Below, in pieces: positions 4,762 to 24,869 of a stretch of DNA of 24,869 nt. This DNA is from a virus: the IMG/VR virus record IMGVR_UViG_3300022602_004801, positions 1 through 24,869 of that record. One strand, 5' to 3'. A program made the position numbers and the translations under genes. Each line of letters opens with the position of its first letter. Position 1 is the stretch's first letter. Below the pieces are notes generated by a model. The model was given only the letters and a program-made list of their open reading frames with translations, did no database searches and was not told the DNA's origin.

Positions 4762-4782
4762 CAATAACGGAGATTGAACAAG

Positions 4783-6036
4783 GTGGCCAGAGATAATTCA
4801 CGACCTATCTTCTCCTGCAGTTTCTGCAGCAAGACCAATCTGGAAGTCAGCAAGCTGATAAACGGAAACGATGTCTACATCTGCAACGAATGCGTGGAAC
4901 TGTGTCACGGTATACTGGTAGAAGAAAAGCACACCAAACCAATACCGCAGAGCGATATCACACCAGATCGCATCAAGCGATTCCTAGATGAGCGAATCAT
5001 AGGCCAAGACCACGCCAAGATGGCCATTGCTGTGGCAGTGTACAATCATATCAAGCGCATTGCCAATCCCAGCATAGATGGTGTGGAGATTGACAAGAGC
5101 AATCTCATGTTCATTGGACCAACAGGCTGTGGCAAGACCTACATGATCCAGCAGGTTGCCAAGATGATGAGCGTGCCAATGGTGATCATTGATGCAACCA
5201 GCATCACAGAAAGCGGTTACGTGGGCCTTGATGTGGAAGAAGCCATCGCGCGGTTGTATCAAGCAGCTGATCAGGACATTGAAAAGACTGAGAAGGGCAT
5301 CATCTACATAGACGAGATTGACAAGAAGAGCCGCAAGAGCGAAAGCAGCAGCATCACGCGCGACGTCAGCGGCGAAGGCGTGCAGCAAGCATTGCTCAAG
5401 ATATTGGAAGGCTGCGAAGTCAAGGTTCCACCCATGGGCGGACGCAAGAATCCTGCCGGTGAATACATCATGGTCAACACCAAGAACATCCTGTTCATCT
5501 TGGGCGGTGCGTTTGTGGGCCTCAAAGATATCGTGAATAAGCGCCTTGACACAGGCAGCGGCATGGGATTCAGTGCAAACCTGAGCAAGCACGACGTTGA
5601 ATCTGCTGACACTTTTAAGCTGATCAGCCAGGCTAGGCAGGAAGATCTCATACAGTTCGGCATCATCCCAGAACTCATCGGGCGCATACCCGTGATGGTG
5701 CCATTCGCAGAGCTTGATGAGGAAGATCTGGTACGCATACTCACCGAACCAAAGAGTGCTATCGTCAAGCAGTACCAAAAGATGTTCCAGCTTGATCATG
5801 TTGAGCTGGAGATACAGCCAACAGCACTGCGCGTGATAGCCAAGCAGGCCCTAGCCAACAAGACTGGTGCCAGAGGTCTCAGAGGTATTATAGAAAAGCT
5901 GCTGCTCAAGACGCAGTTTGACTTACCGCGCCTTGACAAGGAAGGCGTGCAAAAGGTGGTTATCACGGAAGACATGGTTGCCAACGGCAGTGAACCCATG
6001 TTGGTATATCGCTCCAAGGCTGAGGCGGTTGGTTGA
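4783..6036 (+). CDS. clpX: ClpX-like AAA+ unfoldase
   Basis: A full-length ClpX of about 417 residues. It unfolds tagged proteins and feeds them to ClpP. Numbering is from the GTG at 4783, preferred because CGGAG stands about 10 nt upstream; the in-frame TTG at 4774 is too close to it. The N-terminal zinc domain has C12, C15, C34 and C37. Walker A is GPTGCGKT (112-119), Walker B is IIYIDEID with D177-E178, and the pore loop GYVG and the [14 protein letters not shown] segment are present, as is the sensor-2 GARGLR. The loop that in bacterial ClpX carries IGF, the ClpP-docking tripeptide, reads M261-G262-F263 in the same setting (SGMGFSA). No clpP is seen here, so docking to host ClpP is the likely use. 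The gene lies just after the coiled-coil gene and 24 nt before bS21. Confidence 0.95.
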
Positions 6037-6060
6037 TGGTGATTTTTGGATAATTAGTTC

Positions 6061-6339
6061 ATGAACCGTGACAACAGCAACACAAACAGAGACGCTTGGT
6101 CGCACAAGAAGGGCCTGACCGTGCAGGTCTGGAATGGTAACGTAAACAAGGCGTTGAGCCAGCTGAAGAAGCGTGTGGCCACAGAGGGCATAGCCAAAGA
6201 GCTGCGCAAACGCAAGAACTTTGAGACCAACACTGCCAAGCGTCGCAGAGCCATGGCAGAAGCCAAGAGCCGTTGGCGCAAGAAGCAGGCCCAGATAGCC
6301 GGGCTGGAAACTGGCAAGAAGCGCGATCGCAATCGTTAA
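6061..6339 (+). CDS. rpsU: Ribosomal protein bS21 homologue
   Basis: A 92-residue, very basic protein. After a 17-residue polar N-terminal extension it follows the bS21 pattern: LTVQVWNGNVNKALSQLKKR (19-38), then a GIAKELRKRKNFET helix pair and an Arg/Lys-rich C-terminal helix with RRRAMAEAKSRWRKK. bS21 sits near the 3' end of 16S rRNA and helps initiate translation. Phage-borne bS21 genes are known and are thought to replace the host copy in ribosomes during infection. There is no evident Shine-Dalgarno before the ATG, which contrasts with most genes here. The stop codon lies in TTAA and overlaps the stop of the convergent S53 peptidase gene. The call rests on the sequence pattern; incorporation into ribosomes is inference. 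Confidence 0.85.
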   Translation: MNRDNSNTNRDAWSHKKGLTVQVWNGNVNKALSQLKKRVATEGIAKELRKRKNFETNTAKRRRAMAEAKSRWRKKQAQIAGLETGKKRDRNR

Positions 6340-8012
6340 GCAGTGATATAAGGTCGCGGATAGGTTTGTCCGCTGCTAGGACGTGCTCCAACCAGATAGT
6401 TTGGATAAACTGCACCGGTAGAATCGGCTTGGAACACAGCTAATATGCTGGTACCTATCGGGCTACCATAGCCCGTGACAGCATCCCAACCAGTGGTGCA
6501 TTGGTAACCATCCATCTCATAGGCATTGTTGCCAACGGTGATGTCCCGCATCGCGCTGGGGTTGGAGTATAGCTTGGTCTGCATGAAACCTATGCGTCCA
6601 CCTATGGTAGCATTGATTCGAGCTATCAACGCCGCCCACATCGGAGCGCATGCGCTGGTACCACCGTATTGGCTATAGGTGTTGCTGTTTCCCCAATAGA
6701 ACTGATAACCTGTGTTGGGATCACTATTGCCTGCGACATCTGGGACGCCTCGCATGGTCAGGGCCGATACCACGTTACCTGGATAGGTCTTTGCAGTTAG
6801 CCCGTTCTGCCAGCCGGGCAAGCTTTCATAGTAGCTTTGACCACCACCTGAACCAATCCACGCTGTCTCGCTGGCGATGCTGTTGTTGATGTTCAGCTGC
6901 AGAGTAGTACCTCCGCAAGCTAACACGTAGGGGCTGCTGGCAGGATACAACACTTCTTCGGCCAGACCAGCCCATGTGCTGCCTTCGTCTCCGCTAGCTG
7001 CACACACCGTAACACCCAACACCACAGCCTGCGCCAGCACTGCATCTGTAGCAGCTATGGTAGAAGAATCCCAGTATCCGCTGGCTGGGTTATCGCCTGC
7101 GCCCCAACTTATGCTGAGCACTGTTGGATTGTTGGTAGTATCATGTATGGCAACGTTGATTGGATCATACCAGTCTGGACCAGCCACAGGGTTGCTAGTA
7201 CCTGACCCATAACCCCAATACATGGCAATGGTGCTGGTGTGCGCAATCCCACCTGCAACATATATGTCTAGCATGACTTCTGGTGCACCATTGGTGTCAC
7301 TTGGATTATTGTATCCGCCATCTACGTTGGTGTTTGTGATAGTCGGTGCGGCAAAACCCAATGGTGCAAAGCTGGATGTGACATTCTGTGTAGTATAACC
7401 GCCACCGTATTCAATGATTCCTATGCAGGTACCAGTGCCAGTATTGGTGGGCATCTGGTAGGCAGTGGCTATCTGAGTAGGAGTCAATGCAGTCTCAGCT
7501 GCCGGTATAGCATCAGCATCGCTAACTGTTTTGGAGGCATAGGTCAGCTTTACTGGATTATGCAATCCGAACACGTGATCAATCACACCGTCCATCTCAG
7601 CTGGCACGGACAACATGCCTTCATAACTGATATAGGTGCGATCTGGCTTTTGAACTGCTAACAGAGTGATGCCAAACGCAGCATTGAACTGTGCTGCAGT
7701 ACCTTGTAATCTCACTGCTGCTGCACCCGCATGTGCATCAGTTACAGCGATGCCGTGCGAACCAACGAATGCACGCACAGCAGCGATATCAGCATCACTG
7801 GCAGCATATCTGCGTGTGAACTCATCATAGCTGATGTGTGTATCCTCACCGCGGGTTATGGCATCAGCATGCTCAATCATGCTGCGGCCTTGATATGTGG
7901 GCCTGCGCAGCAACAGAGTTGCTTTTACCATCCATGTAGTATCTATGGCCGATGTGCTTATGGCATCTGCAGGTATCAGCGTGCTAGTTCTAGCAAGAGG
8001 AACACGATTCAT
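6336..8012 (-). CDS. S53 family serine-carboxyl peptidase (sedolisin/kumamolisin-like) with pro-domain
   Basis: A 558-residue protein covering the two parts of a kumamolisin-type protease. The N-terminal pro-domain (about 20-155) has the Pro-kumamolisin pattern, including VRLQGTAAQFNAAFG. In the catalytic domain EVMLD supplies the Glu (E245) and Asp (D249), ASGDEGS supplies the oxyanion-type Asp (D342), and YGGTSACAP supplies the nucleophile S453. The late calcium-site elements RDITVG (489-494) and GWDAVTGYGSP (508-518) are also present, so the site looks intact. There is no signal peptide, which argues for delivery in the virion or on lysis rather than Sec secretion. GGAG about 9 nt upstream lies inside the end of the collagen-like gene, one base away, so the two are one operon. 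S53 enzymes usually act at acidic pH. The role in a phage is unknown. Confidence 0.92.
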   Translation of the reverse strand: MNRVPLARTSTLIPADAISTSAIDTTWMVKATLLLRRPTYQGRSMIEHADAITRGEDTHISYDEFTRRYAASDADIAAVRAFVGSHGIAVTDAHAGAAAVRLQGTAAQFNAAFGITLLAVQKPDRTYISYEGMLSVPAEMDGVIDHVFGLHNPVKLTYASKTVSDADAIPAAETALTPTQIATAYQMPTNTGTGTCIGIIEYGGGYTTQNVTSSFAPLGFAAPTITNTNVDGGYNNPSDTNGAPEVMLDIYVAGGIAHTSTIAMYWGYGSGTSNPVAGPDWYDPINVAIHDTTNNPTVLSISWGAGDNPASGYWDSSTIAATDAVLAQAVVLGVTVCAASGDEGSTWAGLAEEVLYPASSPYVLACGGTTLQLNINNSIASETAWIGSGGGQSYYESLPGWQNGLTAKTYPGNVVSALTMRGVPDVAGNSDPNTGYQFYWGNSNTYSQYGGTSACAPMWAALIARINATIGGRIGFMQTKLYSNPSAMRDITVGNNAYEMDGYQCTTGWDAVTGYGSPIGTSILAVFQADSTGAVYPNYLVGARPSSGQTYPRPYITA

Positions 8013-8013
8013 A

Positions 8014-8610
8014 TCATATCTCCAATTGCAGCAGAGTGAGTGTGACAGTTATTGGCACTGCAGAATTACCGTTATTGCTCACTTTCATGGGTATGTCAGT
8101 TGTAGGAGGATTCTCGCTGCTGAAACCTGCTGCTGCTGGTGTGATCAGCTGTGTTGTTGCTGAGTTTGATATTATCTCTGCTATCACACCACTGCCCGGT
8201 GTTGGATTGGTGTATATAGTGCGCGATTGATCATTGGTGCGTGCTGCAATGCTGCTGTATACTGTGACCCAGGCTGCGTGATTGACCTGTATGCTATATA
8301 GATTATACCCCTTGAACCCGTTCACGGACACGCTGACGTTTGAACCCACTGCCAGGTTGGAGGTAGTAACAGATACAGTGGTCCTGCTAGACGAGCTGCA
8401 TGATCCGGTTGATCCAGTTGGACCAGTTGGGCCTGTGTTGGCTGAAGTGCCTGGCTGACCTGTAGGACCACTTGGGCCAGTTGTGCCCCGCAGGCCCGTT
8501 GGACCAGTACCCCCGAGTGAACCTTGCACGCCCATGGGACCAGTTGCGCCTGTGGCACCTCGCACACCAACACCGGTTGGTCCTGTGGGGCCAGTTATGT
8601 AACCCTGCAT
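8014..8610 (-). CDS. Collagen-like repeat protein with C-terminal beta domain
   Basis: A 198-residue protein. Residues about 7-72 are Gly-X-Y triplets dominated by GPT, GAT and GTT, with two short interruptions (near GVGVRG and GTSANTG). After a CSSSS spacer, residues 76-198 form a Ser/Thr/Val-rich domain that looks all-beta and could be a trimerisation or binding head. Collagen-like repeats occur in phage tail fibres and decoration proteins. CGGAG lies the usual distance before the ATG at 8610; an ATG 4 nt further up is in another frame. The S53 peptidase starts one base after its stop, so the two products are made together, and the repeats or the head may be a partner, carrier or substrate of the protease. 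That link is inference. Confidence 0.85.
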
Positions 8611-8633
8611 CCATGATCTCCGTTGAGCTACGA

Positions 8634-8640
8634 TATTTAT
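8634..8640 (-). promoter_or_regulatory. T4-late-promoter-like ATAAATA box
   Basis: On the minus strand ATAAATA lies 24 nt before the ATG of the collagen-like gene (8610), matching 7 of 8 positions of the T4 late consensus TATAAATA. No good -35 box accompanies it, as expected for that promoter type. Confidence 0.45.
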
Positions 8641-8655
8641 GGTTGGGCTCAGATC

Positions 8656-8684
8656 TTGACCTTGAGGTCAGCACATATTAAATA
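8656..8684 (+). promoter_or_regulatory. Candidate promoter for hsp20-clpS
   Basis: TTGACC, 17 nt, TAAATA, about 60 nt before the hsp20 ATG. The -35 box overlaps a palindrome (TGACCT-TG-AGGTCA, 8657-8670) and the -10 box sits in another (CATATT-A-AATATG, 8674-8686), so repression by a DNA-binding protein is plausible. Confidence 0.45.
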
Positions 8685-8743
8685 TGCAAGGTAGGTGCCT
8701 ACGGGGCCTGCAAAATGATGCTTCGCTTTAACAGGAGGTACAA

Positions 8744-9211
8744 ATGCGTCATCCAACAGCAACAGTCTTCAATTCAATGGAAGATCTCTTCCGAGATCTC
8801 AATAGGTTTGCCATAGGCTTTGAGCCTATGATTGCTCGAGTAGCCAGTAATCCGGTTACCTATCCACCTTACAATCTCACTCACGACGAAAATGGCTACA
8901 AGCTTGAACTGGCAGTGGCTGGATTCAAGATGGAAGAACTAGAAATCTATCTCACCAATGATCGTATCCTGATGGTTCGTGGTAGCAAAGCTGAAGATCA
9001 GAACGGGCGCAATTGGATCCATCGTGGTATCGCAGCGCGGGATTTTGAGCGTCAGTTTACTTTGGCAGAACACATCAAGGTCATCTCGGCAAAGATGGAA
9101 GATGGTTTGCTCATAATCGAGCTTGAGCGTGAGATACCAGAATCCAGCAAGGGCAGGGTAATACCAATTACCAATGGCAACATCATAGATGTGACCTCTT
9201 CAGCGGAATGA
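8744..9211 (+). CDS. Small heat-shock protein, Hsp20/IbpA family
   Basis: A 155-residue holdase chaperone. It binds unfolding proteins without ATP and hands them to DnaK-type systems. The alpha-crystallin domain spans about residues 41-133 and matches the IbpA pattern closely: YPPYNL (40-45), a NGYKLELAVAGF strand pair (50-61), a RGIAARDFERQFTLAE segment (94-109), and GLLIIELEREIPE (121-133). The C-terminal IPI (140-142) is the I-x-I oligomerisation motif. An AGGAGGT ribosome-binding site stands directly upstream. ClpS follows 53 nt later on the same strand. In T4-like marine phages Hsp20 is common and is often linked to virion assembly; here dnaK, clpX and clpS in the same window suggest a wider set. 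Confidence 0.93.
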   Translation: MRHPTATVFNSMEDLFRDLNRFAIGFEPMIARVASNPVTYPPYNLTHDENGYKLELAVAGFKMEELEIYLTNDRILMVRGSKAEDQNGRNWIHRGIAARDFERQFTLAEHIKVISAKMEDGLLIIELEREIPESSKGRVIPITNGNIIDVTSSAE

Positions 9212-9264
9212 CCTTGCGTTATGCAACGCTTAACCGCATAATCTAACATAATCAGGAGGGACCA

Positions 9265-9576
9265 ATGGCTAAGACAGATAGATCAACCGTTGTAGCGGTG
9301 ATTGAGCGCGTGGCAATGGCCCCTCCCAAGATGTGGAACGTGTGGTTGATCAACGACGATGCCACCACCATGGAATTCGTGGTGCTGGTGCTCATGCAGA
9401 TTTTCCATCGCAGCTTTGAAGAAGCACAGGACATCATGATGCACATCCACACCAACGGGCGAGGTATCGCGGGTACATACAGCCATGAAGTAGCTGTGCA
9501 AAAGCGCGATGAAACCATAGCCATTGCTCGACAGCACGGATTTCCGCTGATGGCTGAACTAAATCCCGCAGAATGA
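9265..9576 (+). CDS. clpS: ClpS adaptor protein
   Basis: A 103-residue adaptor that recognises destabilising N-terminal residues and delivers the substrate to a Clp unfoldase. The ClpS core is complete: WNVWLINDDATTMEFVV (24-40), a helix ending MMHIHTNG (58-65), AGTYSHEVA, and a final ARQHGFPLMAELNP. The residues that line the N-degron pocket in E. coli ClpS (Asn-Asp-Asp, Thr, Met, His) appear as N30-D31-D32, T34, M36 and H62, so the pocket should work. In bacteria ClpS normally serves ClpA rather than ClpX; no clpA lies here, so it may use host ClpA or serve the phage ClpX in an unusual way. AGGAGGG precedes the ATG. It probably shares transcripts with hsp20. Confidence 0.93.
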   Translation: MAKTDRSTVVAVIERVAMAPPKMWNVWLINDDATTMEFVVLVLMQIFHRSFEEAQDIMMHIHTNGRGIAGTYSHEVAVQKRDETIAIARQHGFPLMAELNPAE

Positions 9577-9580
9577 GCGG

Positions 9581-9608
9581 TTGACAGATCTTTAGAACCG
9601 TGTATAGT
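9581..9608 (+). promoter_or_regulatory. Sigma70-like promoter for the HTH gene
   Basis: TTGACA, 16 nt, TATAGT, placed directly after clpS and about 60 nt before the ATG at 9670. Confidence 0.7.
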
Positions 9609-9669
9609 AATACTGCAACTGAAGTTGTCCACAGGACAACGCACACTTACACTAACTGGAGACTACAAA

Positions 9670-9909
9670 ATGACCGCATATGCTACGCAAGCCGAGAAGG
9701 TTCTCGCTTATCTCAGCAAGGGCAACACGCTCACCGCCAAACAGGCCATGAGCCGCTTCAAGATCCAAAAGCTTTCAGCTCGTATCTTTGAACTCAAGGA
9801 AGAAGGCCACAACATCGTTGCTACTCCTCTTCCGCATGCTGGTGTTGGCGCTCCTCGCGTCAAGTATAGCTTGGCTCCTAAGAGCCGCAAGCGTTCAACC
9901 AAGGCCTAA
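9670..9909 (+). CDS. Small winged-HTH-like DNA-binding protein
   Basis: A 79-residue basic protein. The first 50 residues follow a helix-turn-helix layout: TQAEKVLAYLSKG (6-18), a LTAKQAMSRF helix (21-30), a KLSARIFELKEEGHNIV recognition helix and wing (34-50). This pattern matches small phage/prophage HTH proteins of the HTH_39 type. The tail is Lys/Arg-rich. The start at 9670 is chosen over an in-frame ATG 45 nt upstream because TGGAGA sits 6-11 nt before it. It has its own promoter and ends at a strong terminator, so it is a single-gene unit. It is a candidate binder of the palindromes and repeats seen in nearby leaders; that is inference. Confidence 0.75.
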   Translation: MTAYATQAEKVLAYLSKGNTLTAKQAMSRFKIQKLSARIFELKEEGHNIVATPLPHAGVGAPRVKYSLAPKSRKRSTKA

Positions 9910-9944
9910 TCACTAAGAACTTGTTAGTACAAGTCTAGGGAGGC

Positions 9945-9979
9945 AAAGGGTTCCAGGAAACTGGGACCCTTTTTTATTT
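9945..9979 (+). terminator. Rho-independent terminator
   Basis: A 12-bp stem (AAAGGGTTCCAG paired with CTGGGACCCTTT, one G-U pair), a GAAA tetraloop, and a run of six T. It ends the HTH transcript and overlaps the 3' end of the convergent GGCT-like gene. On the minus strand the T run is short, so it is weaker in that direction. Confidence 0.92.
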
Positions 9980-10429
9980 CTGTGTATGTTTCAGCTCTGT
10001 GATGCGATCGTCCAGAGCTGTGATCAACTGGCTCATAGGTATGTGGTTCTCGCGATAACCAGTGGCTACATAATCCACATACTTGGCGGTTGGTGGTTCG
10101 TCGCTGTGGTATTTCTTAAGCAAAACATAAGACATGGCTTTGAGCATCTTTCCATTGTATTCTATGGTCACTATCTGGTGGCGATAGTTGCTGTGATATG
10201 CTTCGGCCCAATCAAGCTTGTCCAACTGCTCAATTGGTATTATCCATAGGACTCCATGCACAGTGTCCCCCTCTGAAGGCACTATGTTGCTTACATGCTC
10301 TAACACATATTTCCAGTCGTGTAGGTCAGCATGTCCAATTAGACGGGCGTTGGGTACACGCCTGTACATCTCCTGCACGTTGGTATTATGACCGTATGCG
10401 AAATAGGGTATGTGTTCCCAGGCAGCCAT
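9974..10429 (-). CDS. Gamma-glutamylcyclotransferase (GGCT/AIG2)-like protein 1
   Basis: A 151-residue protein of the GGCT/AIG2 fold, whose members release 5-oxoproline from gamma-glutamyl compounds or cleave related amine adducts. The N-terminal substrate loop reads YFAYGHNTN (9-17), where most members have YGSN. GVLWII (59-64) is the core strand, and LDWAEAYHSNYRHQ (72-85) carries the expected catalytic Glu (E76) followed by the Tyr/Arg element. A second member at 21749-22168 has the same odd NTN. The ATG at 10429 is preferred, with a GTG at 10435 as alternative; either lies at the stop codon of the Ntn-hydrolase gene, so translation is coupled. Substrate unknown. Confidence 0.75.
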   Translation of the reverse strand: MAAWEHIPYFAYGHNTNVQEMYRRVPNARLIGHADLHDWKYVLEHVSNIVPSEGDTVHGVLWIIPIEQLDKLDWAEAYHSNYRHQIVTIEYNGKMLKAMSYVLLKKYHSDEPPTAKYVDYVATGYRENHIPMSQLITALDDRITELKHTQK

Positions 10430-10431
10430 GA

Positions 10432-11322
10432 TCACTCGCTGCTGTGCTGCATCTTGGGGAATGGCTTAGTACCCATCTCCTTGCGATGGTCATAGAGCAC
10501 CTTGTTGCTCAGTATCTCCACGAAGCACTTGTGCTTGGGATGATTGAGATCCCAGAAGTTGAATGTCATGTGGCTCTGGACAGGGCGCACTGCAAAGGTG
10601 CTCTCGCTGGGCGTGATCATTATCTGGCTTGTGGTGCGCATCAGCTTCTTTTTGTCTGTGGTGCGCAGGCAGTTTAGCTGCGGATTATCACTGTAGACCC
10701 CTGCCAAGCCGTCGATCATGGCCTGCGGAGTCTCGGCTGCTGCGACCACCTTCTCAGCGATCATCTTGCGGCTTTCGCTGCTGATACGGCTCATGGTCTG
10801 TGATTCGCTCTCTTCGGTACGCTGGTAACCAGCCCATGGTAGCAAAACGCCGTGGTTAGTGCGCACTATGGTTTTATCGTGCGGAATTTCCTGTATCTTG
10901 TAAGCGTATTTCTCGTTCTCGTACTCGCCTGGTTCCCAGCAGCCTTCAAGCAGGTAGCAGGTATCTTTGTCAAATATCAGCGTGTTGCCCGGCAGCTTGT
11001 CCTTGATCAGGCTCATAGCAGCGGCCTTGACATTGGGGTAGCGCAGTGCCTTCTTGAGCTTGACGCCGTCCTTGCTGGGTGTCTTGGTGCGAACCTGTAT
11101 CTCCATCTCGTCGTCCTTGACCATCAAGCTGGCGCTGATGATGCACACTCCGCCGCTGTTCATGCCCTCGCAATACTGTGTGACGTCGTCCCAGAACAGC
11201 ATGACTTCCACGCCGTCGCGATTTTCTCGCTTGAAGCTGATCTCAGGAATGTAGTTACGGTCACGGTTTTTAACACCAACCCAACCTACATCAGGGAAAT
11301 ATTTTGCCGAAACTACACACAT
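10432..11322 (-). CDS. Ntn hydrolase, choloylglycine hydrolase / penicillin V acylase-like
   Basis: A 296-residue protein that would expose Cys2 as N-terminal nucleophile once Met1 is removed. The start at 11322 (MCVV) is chosen because GGAG lies 8 nt upstream and because it places Cys at position 2. Family-type motifs in order are C2, GVKNRDRNY (16-24, matching the GRNMD region with D21), EGMNSGGVCIISASL (52-66, matching DGMNEKGL), and TNHG (155-158, matching the TNxP region). Relatives hydrolyse amide bonds in bile salts, penicillin V or acyl-homoserine lactones. The C-terminal 100 residues are less familiar. It is in one operon with a GGCT-like gene. I know of no standard phage role; cell-signal or peptidoglycan chemistry are guesses. 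Confidence 0.7.
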   Translation of the reverse strand: MCVVSAKYFPDVGWVGVKNRDRNYIPEISFKRENRDGVEVMLFWDDVTQYCEGMNSGGVCIISASLMVKDDEMEIQVRTKTPSKDGVKLKKALRYPNVKAAAMSLIKDKLPGNTLIFDKDTCYLLEGCWEPGEYENEKYAYKIQEIPHDKTIVRTNHGVLLPWAGYQRTEESESQTMSRISSESRKMIAEKVVAAAETPQAMIDGLAGVYSDNPQLNCLRTTDKKKLMRTTSQIMITPSESTFAVRPVQSHMTFNFWDLNHPKHKCFVEILSNKVLYDHRKEMGTKPFPKMQHSSE

Positions 11323-11339
11323 GGGATTCTCCAATAAAT

Positions 11340-11346
11340 TATTTAT
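11340..11346 (-). promoter_or_regulatory. T4-late-promoter-like ATAAATA box
   Basis: On the minus strand ATAAATA lies 18 nt before the ATG of the Ntn hydrolase, a little closer than usual. It abuts the divergent promoter at 11350-11378. Confidence 0.35.
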
Positions 11347-11349
11347 CTG

Positions 11350-11378
11350 TTGTACATATTTGATTGATAGGATATAAT
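11350..11378 (+). promoter_or_regulatory. Sigma70-like promoter giving a leaderless transcript
   Basis: TTGTAC, 17 nt, perfect TATAAT. The -10 box ends 5 nt before the ATG at 11384, so transcription should begin at or within a base of the start codon. No Shine-Dalgarno could be transcribed. Confidence 0.7.
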
Positions 11379-11383
11379 AGCGC

Positions 11384-11668
11384 ATGTGGACCAAGATCAA
11401 GAAGTTCTGGGCAGACAGCTATCACAGCGATCGGCTGGCTTTCTACTTGGAAATGCAGAACTTTTTCTTTAGCGTGGGAGCCAGCATCATGTTGGCTACC
11501 ACTGCCAATCACCCCAACATGGCCTTCATCTATCCATTTTATTTCGTGGGTAGTACCAGCCAAGTAGTGGCCAGCTACCGTCGAGGCCAACCCTGGATCA
11601 TGTTGGTAACTATGTGGTTTGCTACCATGAATGTCGTAGGTTGGTCGAGGGCTATGCAATTCATATGA
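11384..11668 (+). CDS. Small membrane protein, 94 aa
   Basis: A 94-residue protein with two to three hydrophobic helices: about residues 26-41, 46-60 and 70-87, split by a basic YRRGQPW turn (65-71). The N-terminal 20 residues are amphipathic and basic (WTKIKKFWADS), which suggests a cytoplasmic N-terminus. It resembles unnamed small membrane proteins of T4-like marine phages. The gene appears to be expressed from a leaderless mRNA and overlaps the next gene by ATGA. Function unknown. Confidence 0.7.
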   Translation: MWTKIKKFWADSYHSDRLAFYLEMQNFFFSVGASIMLATTANHPNMAFIYPFYFVGSTSQVVASYRRGQPWIMLVTMWFATMNVVGWSRAMQFI

Positions 11669-12291
11669 ACACGCGAGCCATACACATCGAGCCGACCACA
11701 CGCTGCACATTGGCCTGTCCTCAATGTCCGCGGACGGAACATCTGAACATGGTGAACTCGCGTGATTGTGATATCAATACCATGGTCAAAGCATGCAGGG
11801 GTTTTGACAGAGTGCATTTGTGCGGCAATCATGGTGATCCAATATACCATCCGCATTTCCATGAGCTGATCACGAGATTGCGTAACGGCAATCCCAGTCT
11901 GGTTATAACCATGCACACCAACGGAGCGTACCGTGGGCGCGAATGGTGGGAAGCCACAGCTGCCTTGCTGACCAAGGGCGACACAGTGACTTTTAGCATA
12001 GACGGCCTACCAACCAACAATCATATCTATAGGGTCAATAGCCTTTGGTCCAGTGTGGAGCTAGGTATTCGCACGCTGCGTGCCAACAGTGATGCGGAGA
12101 TGGTATGGAAATGGATAGCGTTTAGATACAATGAGAATGACGTGTATGCCGGCACACAACTGGCAAGAGATCTGGGATTTGACCGTTTTCAGATCGTGAA
12201 GAGCTATCGCAGAGGGGAGGATGACGAGCTGAGTCCTTCCCTGAGCTGGCAATATATCCAGGAGCAGGCCAATGCCGCAGGTGTTTGCTAA
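11665..12291 (+). CDS. Radical SAM protein, catalytic half
   Basis: A 208-residue radical SAM domain. C14, C18 and C21 form the CxxxCxxC that binds the [4Fe-4S] cluster (TTRCTLACPQCPR). GNHGDPIYHP takes the place of the GGEP SAM-binding motif, and MHTNGA, FSIDG and FRYNEND match later core strands. The ATG overlaps the stop of the membrane protein (ATGA), so translation is coupled. The frame closes at a TAA just before the point where a SPASM-type Cys domain would begin; that domain continues in the +1 frame from 12272. A single-base indel, possibly in the TTT at 12284-12286, or a +1 frameshift would give one protein of about 300 residues. Otherwise the two halves are separate subunits. Substrate unknown. 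Confidence 0.8.
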   Translation: MNTRAIHIEPTTRCTLACPQCPRTEHLNMVNSRDCDINTMVKACRGFDRVHLCGNHGDPIYHPHFHELITRLRNGNPSLVITMHTNGAYRGREWWEATAALLTKGDTVTFSIDGLPTNNHIYRVNSLWSSVELGIRTLRANSDAEMVWKWIAFRYNENDVYAGTQLARDLGFDRFQIVKSYRRGEDDELSPSLSWQYIQEQANAAGVC

Positions 12292-12604
12292 GTGCAAAAC
12301 CGACCATGTGATGCCCTATATCAGTGCAGATGGCATCTATTGGCCTTGCTGTTGGGTTCCTAACCACCCACACACGGCAACCATGAAGCAATTTCTGGGC
12401 AATGATTTTGAGCAGTTGGATGTCAGCAAACATGATCTTGCTGAGATTGCTCAGAGCAATGCCTTGCAGCGGTTAGAAGCCAGCTGGCAAGACGGTTCGT
12501 TTGCGCCTTGCTTGCGTTTCTGTAGTGAACCATTTGATGAACATAGCCGCATGACCACAGATCAAAAATCAATGATCAAACTAAGGAGACGAACACATGA
12601 GTAA
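12272..12604 (+). CDS. SPASM-like Cys-rich partner of the radical SAM protein
   Basis: A 110-residue protein with the spacing of an auxiliary iron-sulfur (SPASM-like) domain: C8, then ISADGIYWPCC with C26-C27, then APCLRFC with C80 and C84. SPASM domains hold extra clusters that help radical SAM enzymes bind and modify peptides or other substrates. It starts 20 nt inside the end of the radical SAM gene, in the +1 frame. GGAG lies 7 nt before its ATG, so independent initiation is possible. The last 30 residues are basic. The next gene starts inside its final codons. It is best read as the C-terminal part of the same enzyme, either split or frameshifted. Confidence 0.65.
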   Translation: MPQVFAKCKTDHVMPYISADGIYWPCCWVPNHPHTATMKQFLGNDFEQLDVSKHDLAEIAQSNALQRLEASWQDGSFAPCLRFCSEPFDEHSRMTTDQKSMIKLRRRTHE

Positions 12605-13043
12605 CCCAATAATCAAGATGGAGATCACGACAGGAACAGTTCTCATAGAATGTTTTCCTGACAAGGCTCCTAACCACGTGGCCCAGATCCTGCGCCAGGC
12701 AGGTCAAGGCCTGTACGATGGCACAGACTTCCATAGAGTCATTGACGGATTCATGGCACAGGGAGGATGGACCAAGCAGGCTCTGCCGCAGCTGTTGGCT
12801 GAATTCAATGACGTGCCGCATACTGAAGGCATCTGCAGCATGGCACGCACCAGCGATCCAAACAGTGCCAGCGACCAGTTCTTCATCTGCTTTGGCAATG
12901 CCAACTTCCTTGATCGCCAATACACAGTGTGGGGCAAGGTGATCTATGGCATGCAGAATGTGCATGCGATTACCAGAGGTGAACCACCGCAGGATCCCAC
13001 AAAGATCATCAGCATGCGTCCAATGCCGCTGTATGCTGATTGA
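12597..13043 (+). CDS. Cyclophilin-type peptidyl-prolyl cis-trans isomerase
   Basis: A 148-residue cyclophilin that speeds cis-trans isomerisation of prolyl bonds during folding. The single domain has the key active-site set: FHRVIDGFMAQGG (45-57) gives the catalytic Arg R47 with F52, M53 and Q55, and SMARTSDPNSASDQFFI (81-97) and NANFLDRQYTVWGKV (101-115) form the other wall of the pocket, with Trp near the usual position. There is no signal peptide, so it acts in the host cytoplasm. AAGGAG precedes the ATG. It overlaps the end of the SPASM-like gene and is followed by dnaK, whose -35 box overlaps this gene's stop codon. It is shorter than host cytosolic cyclophilins by only a little and looks complete. 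Confidence 0.93.
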   Translation: MSNPIIKMEITTGTVLIECFPDKAPNHVAQILRQAGQGLYDGTDFHRVIDGFMAQGGWTKQALPQLLAEFNDVPHTEGICSMARTSDPNSASDQFFICFGNANFLDRQYTVWGKVIYGMQNVHAITRGEPPQDPTKIISMRPMPLYAD

Positions 13044-13070
13044 CAAGCACCGAACCAAATACTATATAAT
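13040..13070 (+). promoter_or_regulatory. Strong promoter for dnaK
   Basis: Perfect TTGACA overlapping the cyclophilin stop, then 17 nt to TATATA or 19 nt to the perfect TATAAT. Either way transcription would begin near 13075-13078, at the foot of the inverted repeat described next. Confidence 0.75.
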
Positions 13071-13073
13071 GAG

Positions 13074-13098
13074 CATGGCCGGGCTACGGCCGGCCATG
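13074..13098 (+). promoter_or_regulatory. Inverted repeat at the start of the dnaK leader
   Basis: CATGGCCGG and CCGGCCATG form a perfect 9-bp stem around a 7-nt spacer. The layout (9-N7-9, between promoter and chaperone gene) recalls the CIRCE operator (9-N9-9) but the sequence is different. It could be an operator or a stabilising hairpin at the 5' end of the mRNA. No T run follows, so it is not a terminator. Confidence 0.6.
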
Positions 13099-13127
13099 GC
13101 AACATCTTGCTTTATGAGGAGATAGAA

Positions 13128-14984
13128 ATGAGCAAAGTGATAGGTATTGACCTTGGAACCACCAACAGTTGCGTGGCTGTGATCGAAGGTGGCAAGTCTA
13201 AGGTATTAGAGAACGCAGAAGGCGCCCGCACCACGCCCAGCATAGTGGGTTTCAAGGACGGCGAGACCATGGTAGGCGCACCTGCCAAGCGACAGGCAGT
13301 GACCAACCCCAAGAACACGTTACACGCAGTCAAGCGCTTGATTGGCCGCCGCTATGAAGATGACAGCGTGCAGAAGGACAAGAAGCTGCTGAGCTATGCC
13401 ATCGTGGCAGCTGCCAACGGAGATGCCTGGGTAGAAGTTGACGGCAAGAAGATGAGCCCTAGCGAAGTATCGGCTAAGATACTGACCAAGATGAAGGAAA
13501 CTGCTGAGCGCTATCTTGGCACCACAGTTGACCAAGCAGTGATCACTGTGCCAGCTTACTTCAATGATAGCCAGCGCCAGGCCACCAAGGACGCAGGTAA
13601 GATCGCTGGATTGGAAGTGCTGCGCATCATCAACGAACCCACTGCAGCCGCGCTGGCATATGGATTGGACAAGAAGCAGAGCGGCAAGATTGCTGTGTAT
13701 GATCTGGGTGGTGGTACCTTTGACGTCAGCATCCTCGAGCTTGGCGACGGCGTGTTTGAAGTGCTCAGCACCAACGGTGATACACAGCTGGGCGGCGAAG
13801 ACTTCGATCTTCGCATCGTGGACTTTCTCGCAGACACCTTCAAGAACGAACAGGGCATTGATCTGCGCAAGGACACCATGGCACTGCAGCGCCTGAAGGA
13901 AGCTGCTGAGAAGGCCAAGATTGAGCTCAGCTCCAGCAGCCAAACTGAAATCAACCTACCCTACATCACCGCAGACAAGGATGGTCCCAAGCATCTAACC
14001 GTTACACTTTCGCGTGCCAAGCTTGAAAGCCTAGTTGATGACCTGGTCACACGCACACAGGGTCCTTGCCGCAAGGCATTGGCTGATGCTGGACTACAAG
14101 CCAGCGACATCAGCGAGGTCATACTGGTTGGTGGTCAGACTCGCATGCCCAAGGTACAGCAGGCCGTGAAGGAAATCTTCAAGCGCGATCCCAGCCAGGG
14201 CGTGAACCCAGATGAAGTGGTGGCCATGGGTGCTGCCATCCAGGGTGGCGTTCTGCAGGGCGACGTCAAGGACGTGCTGTTGCTGGACGTGACTCCTCTG
14301 AGCCTTGGCATTGAAACTCTAGGCGGAGTGTTTACCAAGCTGATCGAGCGCAACACTACCATACCAACCAAGAAGAGCCAGGTGTTCTCTACAGCAGCAG
14401 ACAATCAACCAGCTGTTAGCATAGCAGTGTTCCAAGGGGAACGCCAGATCGCACGCGACAACAAGAGCTTGGCCAACTTTGAACTAACCGGAATCGCACC
14501 AGCACCTCGCGGTGTGCCGCAGATTGAAGTGACCTTTGACATCGATGCCAACGGCATCGTGCATGTCAGTGCCAAGGACCAAGCAACTGGTAAGGAACAG
14601 AAGATCGCCATCCAGAGCAGCGGCGGACTCAGTGACGAAGACATCGAGCGCATGGTGCGCGAGGCTGAGGAAAACGCAGAAGCTGATAAGAAGAAGCGCG
14701 AAGTGATCGAGACTCGCAACGGTGCTGAGAGCCAGATCAACATGGCTGAGAAGCAGCTCAAGGAACATGAGGACAAGATCCCAGCTGACCTCAAGACTGA
14801 AGTCGAAGCAGCTATCGCAGACGTCCGCACTGCTATCGCAGGTGATGACGTGGCTGAGATGCGGCCAGTGCTGGAGAAGTTTGGTCAGACGCTTATGAAG
14901 ATTGGCGAGATCGTATACAAGGCCCAGAGCACGCCTCCCAGCCCAGACGAGCCAATTGACGTGGAAGCCAAACCAGCAGACTGA
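13128..14984 (+). CDS. dnaK: DnaK (Hsp70) chaperone
   Basis: A full-length 618-residue Hsp70 that binds exposed hydrophobic segments in an ATP cycle. [10 protein letters not shown], the [11 protein letters not shown] segment, [12 protein letters not shown] and [11 protein letters not shown] cover the nucleotide-binding domain. [14 protein letters not shown] begins the substrate domain, which runs through [15 protein letters not shown] and the helical lid (about 500-600). The tail is short and acidic and ends AKPAD rather than in an EEV-type end. Sequence style is alphaproteobacterial, from memory. The ATG at 13128 is chosen because GAGGAG lies 6 nt upstream; the longer frame begins seven codons earlier across that site. 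No dnaJ or grpE is present, so host co-chaperones would be needed. It has its own strong promoter with an inverted repeat in the leader. Confidence 0.98.
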
Positions 14985-14996
14985 TAGGAGCAGCAC

Positions 14997-15449
14997 ATGT
15001 CCCGCACGGGTAAGATAGGATTCACCTGCAGCACCATGGATCTATTCCATGCGGGGCATGTGGCCATGCTTGAACAAGCCAAGCAGCATTGTGATTGGCT
15101 GATAGTTGGTTTGCAGAGCGATCCATCTCTGGATCGCAAGAGCAAAAACAAACCAGTGCAGAGCATCGTGGAACGGCAGATACAGGTAAAGGGCTGCCGT
15201 TTCGTGGACGAGGTTTGGGTATATGACACAGAAAAAGATCTGGAAGATCTGCTAAACATACTGCCAATTGACGTAAGGATCCTTGGCGAAGAATACCAAG
15301 GCAAACAGTTCACTGGGCTACAGATTTGCCAGGATCGTGGCATAGAAATTGTTTTCAACGAGCGCAGGCACGGATTCAGCAGCAGTGGTCTGCGCACCAG
15401 AGTATATAACCTTGAAAGTGCCAAATCCAAGGATGCTATAGAGCAGTAA
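14997..15449 (+). CDS. Cytidylyltransferase-like nucleotidyltransferase
   Basis: A 150-residue enzyme of the HxGH nucleotidyltransferase superfamily, closest in pattern to glycerol-3-phosphate cytidylyltransferase (TagD) and RfaE-type domains, which make CDP- or ADP-linked sugars and alcohols. FTCSTMDLFHAGHVAML carries H18-A-G-H21. KNKPVQSIVERQIQVKGCRFVDEV (49-72) matches the KPV...ER...VDEV segment, and GFSSSGLRTR (126-135) stands for the RTSGISTT-type nucleotide loop. TAGGAG precedes the ATG, 12 nt after dnaK, so they share a transcript. It may supply an activated precursor for the glycosyltransferase-like proteins in this window; that link is inference, and the exact substrate cannot be read. 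Confidence 0.82.
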   Translation: MSRTGKIGFTCSTMDLFHAGHVAMLEQAKQHCDWLIVGLQSDPSLDRKSKNKPVQSIVERQIQVKGCRFVDEVWVYDTEKDLEDLLNILPIDVRILGEEYQGKQFTGLQICQDRGIEIVFNERRHGFSSSGLRTRVYNLESAKSKDAIEQ

Positions 15450-22168: not shown

Positions 22169-22912
22169 TCACAGGCCGTAGCGTGAGCTAATGGCGTTAT
22201 AGTTCTGCTGTATCTCACCGCTGGTCAGCGCACGATCATAGATCAAAGCCTGTCCGATGTTGCCCTGCAGATACTCGTATTGCGCAGGCCAAGTCAGACC
22301 AACCTGAAGATTGGCATCATTGGTATCCAGACCACTGGCAGCTTGCGTACCCACCAGCTGACCATTGGCCCAAAGGCTGCGATTGTTTCCGTCCCACTGT
22401 GCTATCACGTTCACCCATTGGGTATAATCTACCAAGGTTACTACTGATGAAAAATCATTGCCCCACCAATAGTTGTCAAGACCATTGGGTGAGTTTATGG
22501 TGCGAAAAGCGTTAACGCTGCCCACGCTACCGAAGCCGTCCCCAACACATAAGATGCCGCCTGTTCCAGGCCAAGTGCCGCTGGGCCATTGCACCCAGGC
22601 ACAGAGAGTATAGGGGCTTGAGCCAGATGGGAGGTTGTTGGTTGCTGTGTTGTTGAAGTAACCGTCAGCTCCCGTGCTGAAATAACCGCCGCCGCTGCTG
22701 GTCCATGAGATGCTGCCGCTGTTCTGCATGTCCACATCGTTGCCGTTGCCGCTGAGATCATACCATGTTGTGCCAGAGCCTGGATAGCTAGATCCCAGCG
22801 CAGCGTCCAAGTACAGCTGGAGATTGGCAGTTACGATAGCAGGTCCACTGCTAGCACCACCTATGGTGATGCCACCCTGTATGGTTATGCCCTGCTCTAT
22901 GACTATGCTCAT
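22169..22912 (-). CDS. LamG / concanavalin A-like lectin domain protein
   Basis: A 247-residue protein. After a 25-residue Ile/Gly repeat start (IEQGITIQGGITIGG), a LamG-like jellyroll domain runs from about 30 to 245: LQLYLDAALGSSYPGSGTTW, WYDLSGNGNDV (a common LamG signature), SYTLCAWVQ-type strands, WVNVIAQWDGNNRSLWANGQLVGTQ, and a last LQGNIGQALIYDRALTSGEIQQNYNA element. Such domains bind carbohydrate and are found in phage tail and decoration proteins, so a role in attachment to the host surface is likely. It lies 7 nt after the Hint tail protein on the same strand, with no clear ribosome-binding site, so it is probably translated by coupling. Confidence 0.85.
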   Translation of the reverse strand: MSIVIEQGITIQGGITIGGASSGPAIVTANLQLYLDAALGSSYPGSGTTWYDLSGNGNDVDMQNSGSISWTSSGGGYFSTGADGYFNNTATNNLPSGSSPYTLCAWVQWPSGTWPGTGGILCVGDGFGSVGSVNAFRTINSPNGLDNYWWGNDFSSVVTLVDYTQWVNVIAQWDGNNRSLWANGQLVGTQAASGLDTNDANLQVGLTWPAQYEYLQGNIGQALIYDRALTSGEIQQNYNAISSRYGL

Positions 22913-22919
22913 AGCAAGG

Positions 22920-24869
22920 TCAAGCCATCACTGTAGAACGTATGTCCAGCGCTTCCAAGCGAGTTTCCACATACCAGCGTATGTAACCCGCTGTATGCTC
23001 CGCACACTGTTCCTGCAACCTCAGTCCTGCTATCCACTTGTGATCAATGCCAGAAAATTCGCTTAATGGCCTTAATTCGCGATGATCCTTGACGAACTTC
23101 ATGTCGGCTATTGGGTAGGTGTTGTTGAACCTGTTGCTGGTCAGCACACCGTCAGCATAGCAGTTGAGATGGTACTCTGTCCACAGGTTGTAGTAGGTCA
23201 CTGGCTCTGATATGACCTCTGCGCTGACCAGCACAATCTCTTCACCGCGGTCGTTGACAGTGACCGTGCCAAGTGGCGTGTCTGCCATCATGGTGTGAGT
23301 GAAGCGTCCAGCAGCCTTGTTGAATATGTGATGGTGACCAACCGTGCGCAGCGTTGTACCATCGCTGAACGTGAGCAGGTTGTATTCGTGGGCTGTTTCT
23401 GCGGCCTTGAGCCAGATTGGTGGTGCGCTTGCGGACACGCCGTTGTCAAAGTCCCAGACCTTGATATGGTCAGCATATGTTATGTCTTCAATCCGCTTGA
23501 CAGTGCCATCTGCCAGTGTGATCAGCGTGCCTGCTGGGAAGCAAACGTAACCGCTGGTGCCTGTCGCTGGTGCGCTGTATACAGTGCCGGCATTGGTGGT
23601 CACGAATGCTACTACCGTGAACGGAGTGCTCTGGTAACCAGTGGTGAAGGTCAAGATCTGCTGACCAGTTGTTGCTGTGCCTTCAACATAGGTGTCTGCT
23701 TGAGTACCACTGGTAATGATCAAGCCAGTGGAGATGATGCCAGGAGTGCTGTTGATGGTATAGCTCACGCGACCTTGGCTTGGATAGTTGTCGTTGTCTC
23801 CAAGGTTAGCATCGTCAACGTTGGCACTCTGCACGTAGGCAGCATAGTTCACTGTGCCTGAACCACCTCCACCGCCTACCAGTGCGTTGCTGCCATCGTG
23901 CCAGTTGATGGTACCACCTGGAGGCAGGGTTAGGTTACCAGTCTGATCAAAGGTCCAGCTGCCGACCGGGCCAGTGATCTGCACGAAGTTGTTGCTGTTG
24001 TACATGGTGATCAGCACATAACCCCCATCATTAGGGCTGATGCCTATCTCATCACCATACATCACGATACCAAGGTCGCCTGTGACCGCCAGCTGGCTGT
24101 TGCCGCTGAACATGCCAATACCACCCACACCGGAGCTGCGGAGCCACATGTCCTCTGTGGTCTGTATGGTCATGGCATTGCTGCTGATTATGCCTCCGTT
24201 GGCAGGCAGCGTGATATTGCCGGTGATGTCAAAGTCCCAGACATTAGTCTCACCATTGGTGCTGATCCACACGTTGCCACCTTGGCTCGCGGGTTTGAGC
24301 CACACTTCGCTGAAGCTGGATTCGTTGGTGTAGAGGTCTATGCCAGTGTCAGCAGTTGAGCCAGTGATCTGACCATAGCCACCCGTGCCTTGGTAGTCTG
24401 GCAGAGTCAGCGCGCCACCGTTGCTGGTAGCAGCAAACACTAGGTCAAAGCCGTTGCTCTGCCATACCATGTCAGCATTTACGCTGCTGGCCATGGTGCT
24501 GTTCACGAAGGTGATGTTGCCAGTGTTGGCATTGCCTGTGGGTCCTGGAGGTGTGGTCCAGGTCACAGAACCGCTGCCATTAGTTGCTAGCATCTGCCCG
24601 GCAGTGCCATCAGCAGCCGCGAAGCTGTAATTAGGGAATGCTGTGGTACCGTCGGATCCAAACTGCCACGTGTTGGTTATGTTATTAGCAGGGCCAGTTC
24701 CGATGGTGACGCTGCCGTATAGCCTGTTCAATATTATGGAGTCGGAACTGCCATTGGCTGGTAATATCAATGCTGCGGTAGCAGCGTGTGATAGATCAGC
24801 GTTCTCCACGACGATCCCACCAAGGTCATACAAGCTGTTGCCCGTGAATCTGATGTTACCGGTAACGTA
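22920..24869 (-). CDS. Tail-fibre-like protein with C-terminal Hint (intein/hedgehog-like) domain, 5' end cut by window
   Basis: At least 649 residues; the frame stays open to the right edge, so the true start lies outside. The visible N-terminal 400 residues are Gly/Asn/Thr-rich beta repeats with recurrent GNITLP or GNLTLPPGG units, as in phage tail fibre and baseplate proteins. After TSGYV comes a Hint domain of about 140 residues (about 23543 down to 23120). It has an N-terminal Cys (CFPAGTLITLADG), TVGHHHIF with the TxxH of block B, and YYNLWTEYHLNCYADGVLTSN at the end. The last block lacks the usual His-Asn and is followed by Arg rather than Cys, Ser or Thr, so splicing is unlikely and N-terminal cleavage more likely. 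A 60-70-residue helical tail follows. Confidence 0.8.
   Translation of the reverse strand, partial: YVTGNIRFTGNSLYDLGGIVVENADLSHAATAALILPANGSSDSIILNRLYGSVTIGTGPANNITNTWQFGSDGTTAFPNYSFAAADGTAGQMLATNGSGSVTWTTPPGPTGNANTGNITFVNSTMASSVNADMVWQSNGFDLVFAATSNGGALTLPDYQGTGGYGQITGSTADTGIDLYTNESSFSEVWLKPASQGGNVWISTNGETNVWDFDITGNITLPANGGIISSNAMTIQTTEDMWLRSSGVGGIGMFSGNSQLAVTGDLGIVMYGDEIGISPNDGGYVLITMYNSNNFVQITGPVGSWTFDQTGNLTLPPGGTINWHDGSNALVGGGGGSGTVNYAAYVQSANVDDANLGDNDNYPSQGRVSYTINSTPGIISTGLIITSGTQADTYVEGTATTGQQILTFTTGYQSTPFTVVAFVTTNAGTVYSAPATGTSGYVCFPAGTLITLADGTVKRIEDITYADHIKVWDFDNGVSASAPPIWLKAAETAHEYNLLTFSDGTTLRTVGHHHIFNKAAGRFTHTMMADTPLGTVTVNDRGEEIVLVSAEVISEPVTYYNLWTEYHLNCYADGVLTSNRFNNTYPIADMKFVKDHRELRPLSEFSGIDHKWIAGLRLQEQCAEHTAGYIRWYVETRLEALDIRSTVMA

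Follow-up and report, generated by a model that had tools for sequence, protein, structure and literature searches.

A phage S53 protease zymogen encoded directly behind a fibre C-domain gene: one form of an apparently unreported two-gene module

The virus record analysed here (the window, 24,869 bases) carries on its minus strand a gene for a collagen-like protein and, one base past its stop codon, a gene for a serine protease of the S53 (kumamolisin) type. What would a phage do with such an enzyme, and is the collagen-like protein its partner, its substrate or neither? The original prediction held that the two genes form a late operon of virion components and that the protease might cut host surface proteins or mature the collagen-like protein. 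The relevant features of the window are the following.

8634..8641, minus strand: T4-late-promoter-like box CATAAATA, 31 nt upstream of the fibre start (from sequence)
8014..8610, minus strand: fibre protein, collagen-like shaft plus C-domain, 198 aa (ORF and Pfam)
8398..8592, minus strand: Gly-X-Y (collagen-like) shaft, aa 7-71 (Pfam Collagen, 2.8e-6); relatives have other fibre repeats instead
8017..8391, minus strand: C-domain, aa 74-198, a beta sandwich (AlphaFold pLDDT 96) common to gp10/tail-fibre proteins of T4-like cyanophages
8013..8013, minus strand: one-base gap between fibre stop and protease start, the spacing seen most often in relatives
6336..8012, minus strand: S53 (kumamolisin-type) protease zymogen, 558 aa, ATG start (AlphaFold pLDDT 79, pTM 0.86)
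7500..7946, minus strand: pro-domain, about aa 23-171 (Pro-kuma_activ match at aa 58-152 and alignment with 1t1e)
6423..7499, minus strand: catalytic domain, about aa 172-530, with E245, D249, D342 and S453 (kumamolisin alignment)
6354..6416, minus strand: C-terminal tag, aa 533-553, GAVYPNYLVGARPSSGQTYPR, predicted disordered, common to S8 proteases and small tag proteins

The second gene encodes a complete S53 enzyme with its pro-domain, as originally predicted. In phmmer searches, its product matches pro-kumamolisin (1t1e) with E=1.1e-87 over residues 23-527 and mature kumamolisin-As with 2e-68; the Pfam pro-domain model Pro-kuma_activ (PF09286) scores 54.7 bits (1.8e-14) against a cut-off of 23.5. 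Alignment places E245, D249, D342 and S453, exactly the positions assigned beforehand, on the kumamolisin Glu, Asp, oxyanion Asp and Ser. The same four residues are kept in all 19 complete viral S53 sequences, near-copies included (one fragment, L006, stops before S453, and L018 is rearranged); the pro-domain is missing or truncated in two short relatives (L045 and L079). The AlphaFold model (pTM 0.86) has the subtilisin-like fold and superimposes with TM 0.75 on S53 models from giant viruses, namely the full-length S53-like entries A0A3G4ZQ87 and A0A3G5A7D9 of BFVD, from Barrevirus and Homavirus. No full S53 match from a phage was listed when the viral structure library was searched with this model, and no S53 was found among 50,697 records of cultured phages. 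Comparison with the two closest distinct relatives tested gave dN/dS ratios of about 0.09 (L003; dN 0.146, dS 1.61) and about 0.11 (L006; dN 0.074, dS 0.687): the gene is kept by strong purifying selection. Its start lies one base past the Gly-X-Y gene, as had been noted, the gap being position 8013, and a GGAG Shine-Dalgarno motif for it falls within the last codons of the fibre gene.

Related S53 genes were collected from 17 IMG/VR loci, one of which (L012) ends before the upstream gene. In all loci reaching upstream except L017 and L018, the same-strand gene preceding the protease ends in a domain of about 100-125 aa like residues 74-198 of the window protein. The original prediction, which was to fall if the pair were not conserved in relatives, holds in this respect; its emphasis on collagen does not. 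A Gly-X-Y body precedes the C-domain in the window and in L002-L006, L009-L011, L013 and L016. Elsewhere the C-domain stays and other bodies replace Gly-X-Y: YadA-like GNxAG repeats in L007/L008, a ILGGVKVDGTTI fibre repeat in an 877-aa protein in L014, and another non-collagen fibre of 445 aa in L015. The predicted structure of the C-domain finds its best matches in cyanophage fibre proteins (TM 0.95-0.97) and, in the PDB, weak jelly-roll-, CUB- or P-domain-like matches at best. Its invariant residues include Y29, L31, W41, Y45, D54, R57 and E72 (A8 numbering).

Some of these loci carry further peculiarities. Upstream of the module in L013 (5288-6208) is a protein of low-complexity repeats (MPAPMTGGG / PSGMGIPTPMGG units) whose C-terminal part is hydrophobic. 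The S53-like gene of L018 (3014-4159), from a myophage with a sheath, is flanked by a tail-tube-like and a tail-assembly-like gene; its SISWG block is displaced to a position after the GGTS catalytic motif, and it has neither pro-domain nor tag; it is possibly an inactivated or repurposed S53. In L017 (9963-13946) a single polypeptide of 1327 aa joins an S53 zymogen to about six beta-sandwich domains resembling cadherin, which makes a covalent alternative for constructing an S53 surface protein; neither C-domain nor tag was found on its 90-kb contig.

Searches of the phage collection with the C-domain returned 48 records, almost all T4-like cyanophages. Here too a clan SB protease follows, of family S8 (subtilase), and starts at most about 1 bp from the stop codon of the C-domain gene in S-H38, S-H9-1, S-WAM2, S-RSM4, S-CREM1, Sf-FR1, S-CAM4, ACG-2014e/h/i and S-CAM1. 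Several of these proteases are annotated as "subtilisin-like serine protease", and the fibre as "baseplate wedge subunit and tail pin" or "tail fiber". For counts, the closest 80 of more than 580 IMG/VR matches to the C-domain were pooled with the phage loci and reduced to 74 clusters at 90% identity; percentages from this sample may not hold across the whole family. Within it, a clan SB protease directly follows the C-domain gene in 65 of 74 clusters (50 S8, 15 S53), a non-protease family, BM, in 4 and something else in 5, and 1 bp is the most frequent gap. The S8 His, Ser and oxyanion Asn are kept in 70/70 sequences and the Asp in 68/70, the other two having Glu at the aligned position (L022:5308-7563 and L118:1484-3295). 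The non-protease proteins, of 608-929 aa (L023:5299-7125, L024:5305-7602, L026:5311-8100, L021:2879-5182), occupy the protease's place and are followed by a small tag protein. No natural fusion of C-domain and protease was found among the module loci. Given the non-collagen partners and the S8 enzymes behind the same C-domain, the conserved unit is a fibre C-domain plus a tagged protease. The window pair has all its parts: a C-domain ending the upstream gene, a same-strand clan SB protease 1 bp downstream, and the tag.

The tag comes after the kumamolisin fold. The C-terminus reads GAVYPNYLVGARPSSGQTYPRPYITA in the window protease and GQAYPTTQYKYRRDSGVVYPRPRIRRT in the S8 protease of S-H38; the window core, GARPSSGQTYPR at aa 542-553, matches the pattern GxRPxSGxxYPR, which follows the protease domain in both S53 and S8 enzymes. 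In 247,187 aa of ORF translations from the loci collected up to then, this pattern occurs 19 times, always in module genes, against 0.12 in shuffles; chance was accordingly rejected. A 21-position profile was then run over whole records; sequences used to build it match by construction, which does not apply to held-out records. Among complete non-redundant proteases, 48 of 56 exceed 8 bits, and a recognisable [YFW]PR remnant persists in 7 of the remaining 8. All 10 held-out cyanophage records with a C-domain (S-WAM2, S-RSM4, ACG-2014i, S-CAM4, ACG-2014e, S-CREM1, Sf-FR1, AG-345-P14, S-CRES2 and S-SCSM1) contain the tag, 9 of them in or just after the gene following the C-domain gene; the match in S-CRES2, 17 kb from the C-domain gene, is doubtful. 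The profile search found no tag in any of seven records lacking the C-domain (P-SSM5, S-T4, S-TIM54, syn9, S-PM2, P-SSM4 and P-HM2), two of which, P-SSM5 and S-T4, do encode S8 proteases, nor in any of 80 cellular S53 proteins; the T4 genome yielded a partial match only (12.7 bits), in a 30-aa frame. A tblastn search with the 31-aa tag gave no match, the query being too short and divergent. Where a non-protease stands behind the C-domain, the tag is found on a separate protein of 77-120 aa encoded next (S-BM3, Sf-CH1b, AG-345-F15 and the first module of S-H9-1). The held-out records, the tagless S53 and S8 enzymes and the separate tag proteins together indicate that the tag goes with the C-domain and not with the protease. 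In the S53 model the tag lacks order (pLDDT about 33), which would be expected if it took up its fold on a partner. A generic C-terminal sorting signal is unlikely, since in S-H9-1, S-MbCM7 and others the tag directly follows the protease domain, leaving 119-411 residues between it and the C-terminus.

The late-promoter-like box announced before the operon is present (CATAAATA). ATAAATA occurs twice in the window against 1.08 expected, so that the single box is not significant by itself. Across relatives it becomes significant, since ATAAATA lies within 60 nt upstream of 27/94 C-domain genes, as compared to 0.58% of random positions. These boxes, at 23-45 nt before the start, presumably correspond to the T4 late promoter, which they resemble. 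A two-gene late operon is supported. Fibre, baseplate or other structural genes adjoin the module in L007, L014, L015, L083 and cyanophages, and T4-type gp23 is encoded on three S53-bearing contigs. The window itself has a T4-type rIIA gene (phrog_612, 7e-112). Around the pair, on the opposite strand (4774-15449), is a dense proteostasis set comprising a ClpX-like ATPase, Hsp20, ClpS, cyclophilin and DnaK, plus ribosomal protein bS21. Further along the window (22169-24833, minus strand), a large fibre-like protein that carries a Hint (hedgehog/intein-type) module at its C-terminus could be a self-processing virion protein; it is followed by a LamG/concanavalin-like protein.

What we infer beyond the gene pair, from docking and virion presence to activation, substrate and pH, would run as follows. 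The late module would arm a tail or baseplate fibre with a protease, fibre and zymogen being made together. The first gene would supply a fibre with an interchangeable shaft ending in the conserved beta-sandwich C-domain, and the second a clan SB serine protease zymogen (S53 here, S8 in cyanophages and most relatives) whose protease domain is followed at once by a flexible tag. Judging from their co-occurrence, the tag most likely binds the C-domain, which would mount the protease at the fibre end. Carried on the virion, the enzyme would cut host-surface or extracellular-matrix proteins during adsorption. We put the probability of this reading, a tagged protease docked on the fibre C-domain and acting from the virion, at roughly 0.6; the view of fibre and protease as virion components, already part of the original prediction, is supported as likely. 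Counting against it are L017 and several cyanophages, which have such proteases without C-domain or tag. S-PM2, syn9 and S-SM1, the three phages whose proteomes were compared in PMC3037559, are without the C-domain.

The main competitor keeps the same docking and predicts cleavage of the fibre: the tag would recruit the protease to the C-domain during assembly, where it would process the fibre or neighbouring tail proteins and might then leave. That the protease gene strictly adjoins the fibre gene and seems coupled to it suits such a maturation enzyme, the co-occurrence of tag and C-domain fits recruitment equally well, and a zymogen encoded beside a fibre gene, its activity delayed by the pro-domain form, could be an assembly protease; many conserved peptidases of jumbo phages are thought to process virion proteins (PMC7824862). 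The proposal is weakened by the shafts, which are unrelated (collagen, YadA-like and T4-type repeats) and so have no cleavage site in common outside the C-domain, and by the phages in which a large non-protease and a separate tag protein stand behind the same C-domain, whose fibres therefore mature without a protease. Some proteases, moreover, bear extra C-terminal domains of structural type; the one in certain cyanophage S8 enzymes resembles the tail-fibre connector of the baseplate wedge (phrog_677). S53 enzymes are active at acid pH, and the host cytoplasm is not acid. On balance we regard maturation as improbable, though it deserves more weight than the other alternatives.

A protease devoted to maturing or digesting the collagen-like protein is a much weaker proposition. 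Some S53 enzymes, such as kumamolisin-As, do cleave collagen, and collagen-like shafts are found in the window and the ten relatives listed above; but the partners in L007/L008, L014 and L015 are non-collagen fibres that keep both C-domain and S53, and S8 holds the same place in most of the relatives sampled (closest 80 of more than 580, plus phage loci). Collagen was accordingly rejected as conserved partner or substrate; this part of the original prediction is largely refuted, and we consider it very unlikely. Slightly less remote, and still improbable, is a cargo enzyme with no role in the virion, made late, released at lysis or acting in the cell (for example on host proteins) and merely sharing the fibre operon. 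Proteases of the L017 and P-SSM5 type, existing without C-domain or tag, speak for it; it leaves unexplained the adjacency in 65 of the 74 sampled clusters and a tag common to different protease families that is missing where the C-domain is missing.

Under the preferred reading, of a virion-borne protease docked on the fibre, the choice of enzyme may relate to habitat. In a tree of 15 viral and 80 cellular S53 proteins, a branch with SH-aLRT 99 separates the viral from the cellular sequences. S53-bearing C-domains are scattered among S8-bearing ones, implying 6 changes, of which well-supported branches force only 1, the domain being short and poorly resolved; repeated swapping of S8 and S53 is suggestive only. 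The protease of L005 is 100% identical to that of the window over 339 aa. L005 and L009 both come from dataset 3300000553, the hypolimnion of Trout Bog Lake, a lake of pH 4.8 (PMC5636890) and the one dataset for which environmental pH was confirmed. An acid-type S53 would serve in acidic bog water and S8 in seawater, and replacement of S8 by S53 would fit extracellular action at low pH. A broader generalization, which we hold tentatively and at somewhat less than even odds, is that C-domain and tag may be a general plug-and-socket of T4-like phages, by which any late GxRPxSGxxYPR protein could be mounted on a fibre end, payloads (S53, S8 or non-enzymatic) having been exchanged in evolution according to host surface and water pH; a virion-borne protease needed for infection would then be carried by many phages of sea and fresh water.

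Altogether, the zymogen, the late operon and the likely place in the virion stand as first proposed, and so does novelty: no report of a phage S53, or of a module of fibre C-domain and tagged protease, was found in the open-access literature (most subscription journals lie outside it). To these the analysis adds the C-domain, the tag common to both protease families and the S8 counterpart that cultured phages encode; the S53 pair is one form of a widespread and apparently unreported two-gene kit. The enzymes known from phage tails are for the most part polysaccharide depolymerases. If correct, a fibre-mounted protease with a tag portable between two protease families would change the view of adsorption by marine and freshwater T4-like phages and point to a protein barrier at the host surface. 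It would also provide a function hypothesis for phrog_9158, phrog_9627 and phrog_15343, listed in PHROGs as of unknown function. The module is directly testable, since the cultured cyanophages S-RSM4, S-WAM2, S-H38 and S-CREM1 carry the S8 version.

Four known systems bear comparison. With kumamolisin and sedolisin (MEROPS S53; 1t1e, and 1sio for kumamolisin-As) the window enzyme shares fold, pro-domain, the Glu-Asp-Asp-Ser set and the closing aspartate motifs of the Ca site, viral S53 proteins being about 40% identical to the 80 cellular ones; it differs in being phage-encoded, in its C-terminal tag and, L017 and L018 excepted, in always standing behind a fibre C-domain gene. The cyanophage S8 proteases (phrog_9158; S-H38, S-H9-1, S-RSM4, S-WAM2) occupy the same slot 0-1 bp behind the C-domain, with the same tag and late-promoter box, but belong to another catalytic family with another pro-domain, and are annotated singly, without module or tag, in the records examined. 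In T-even phages, the gene directly downstream of gp37 encodes gp38, which goes to the tip of the gp37 fibre. The pair layout is alike; here, however, the second protein is S53 or S8 by Pfam and structure rather than an adhesin or chaperone of gp38 type, a short tag is the proposed link, and the systems are not homologous as far as tested. Finally, the virion-borne depolymerases of tailspikes likewise place on the adsorption organ an enzyme that clears the host surface, as proposed here; the activity in our case would be proteolytic instead of polysaccharide-degrading, and would reside in a separate polypeptide docked by its tag rather than in a domain of the spike.
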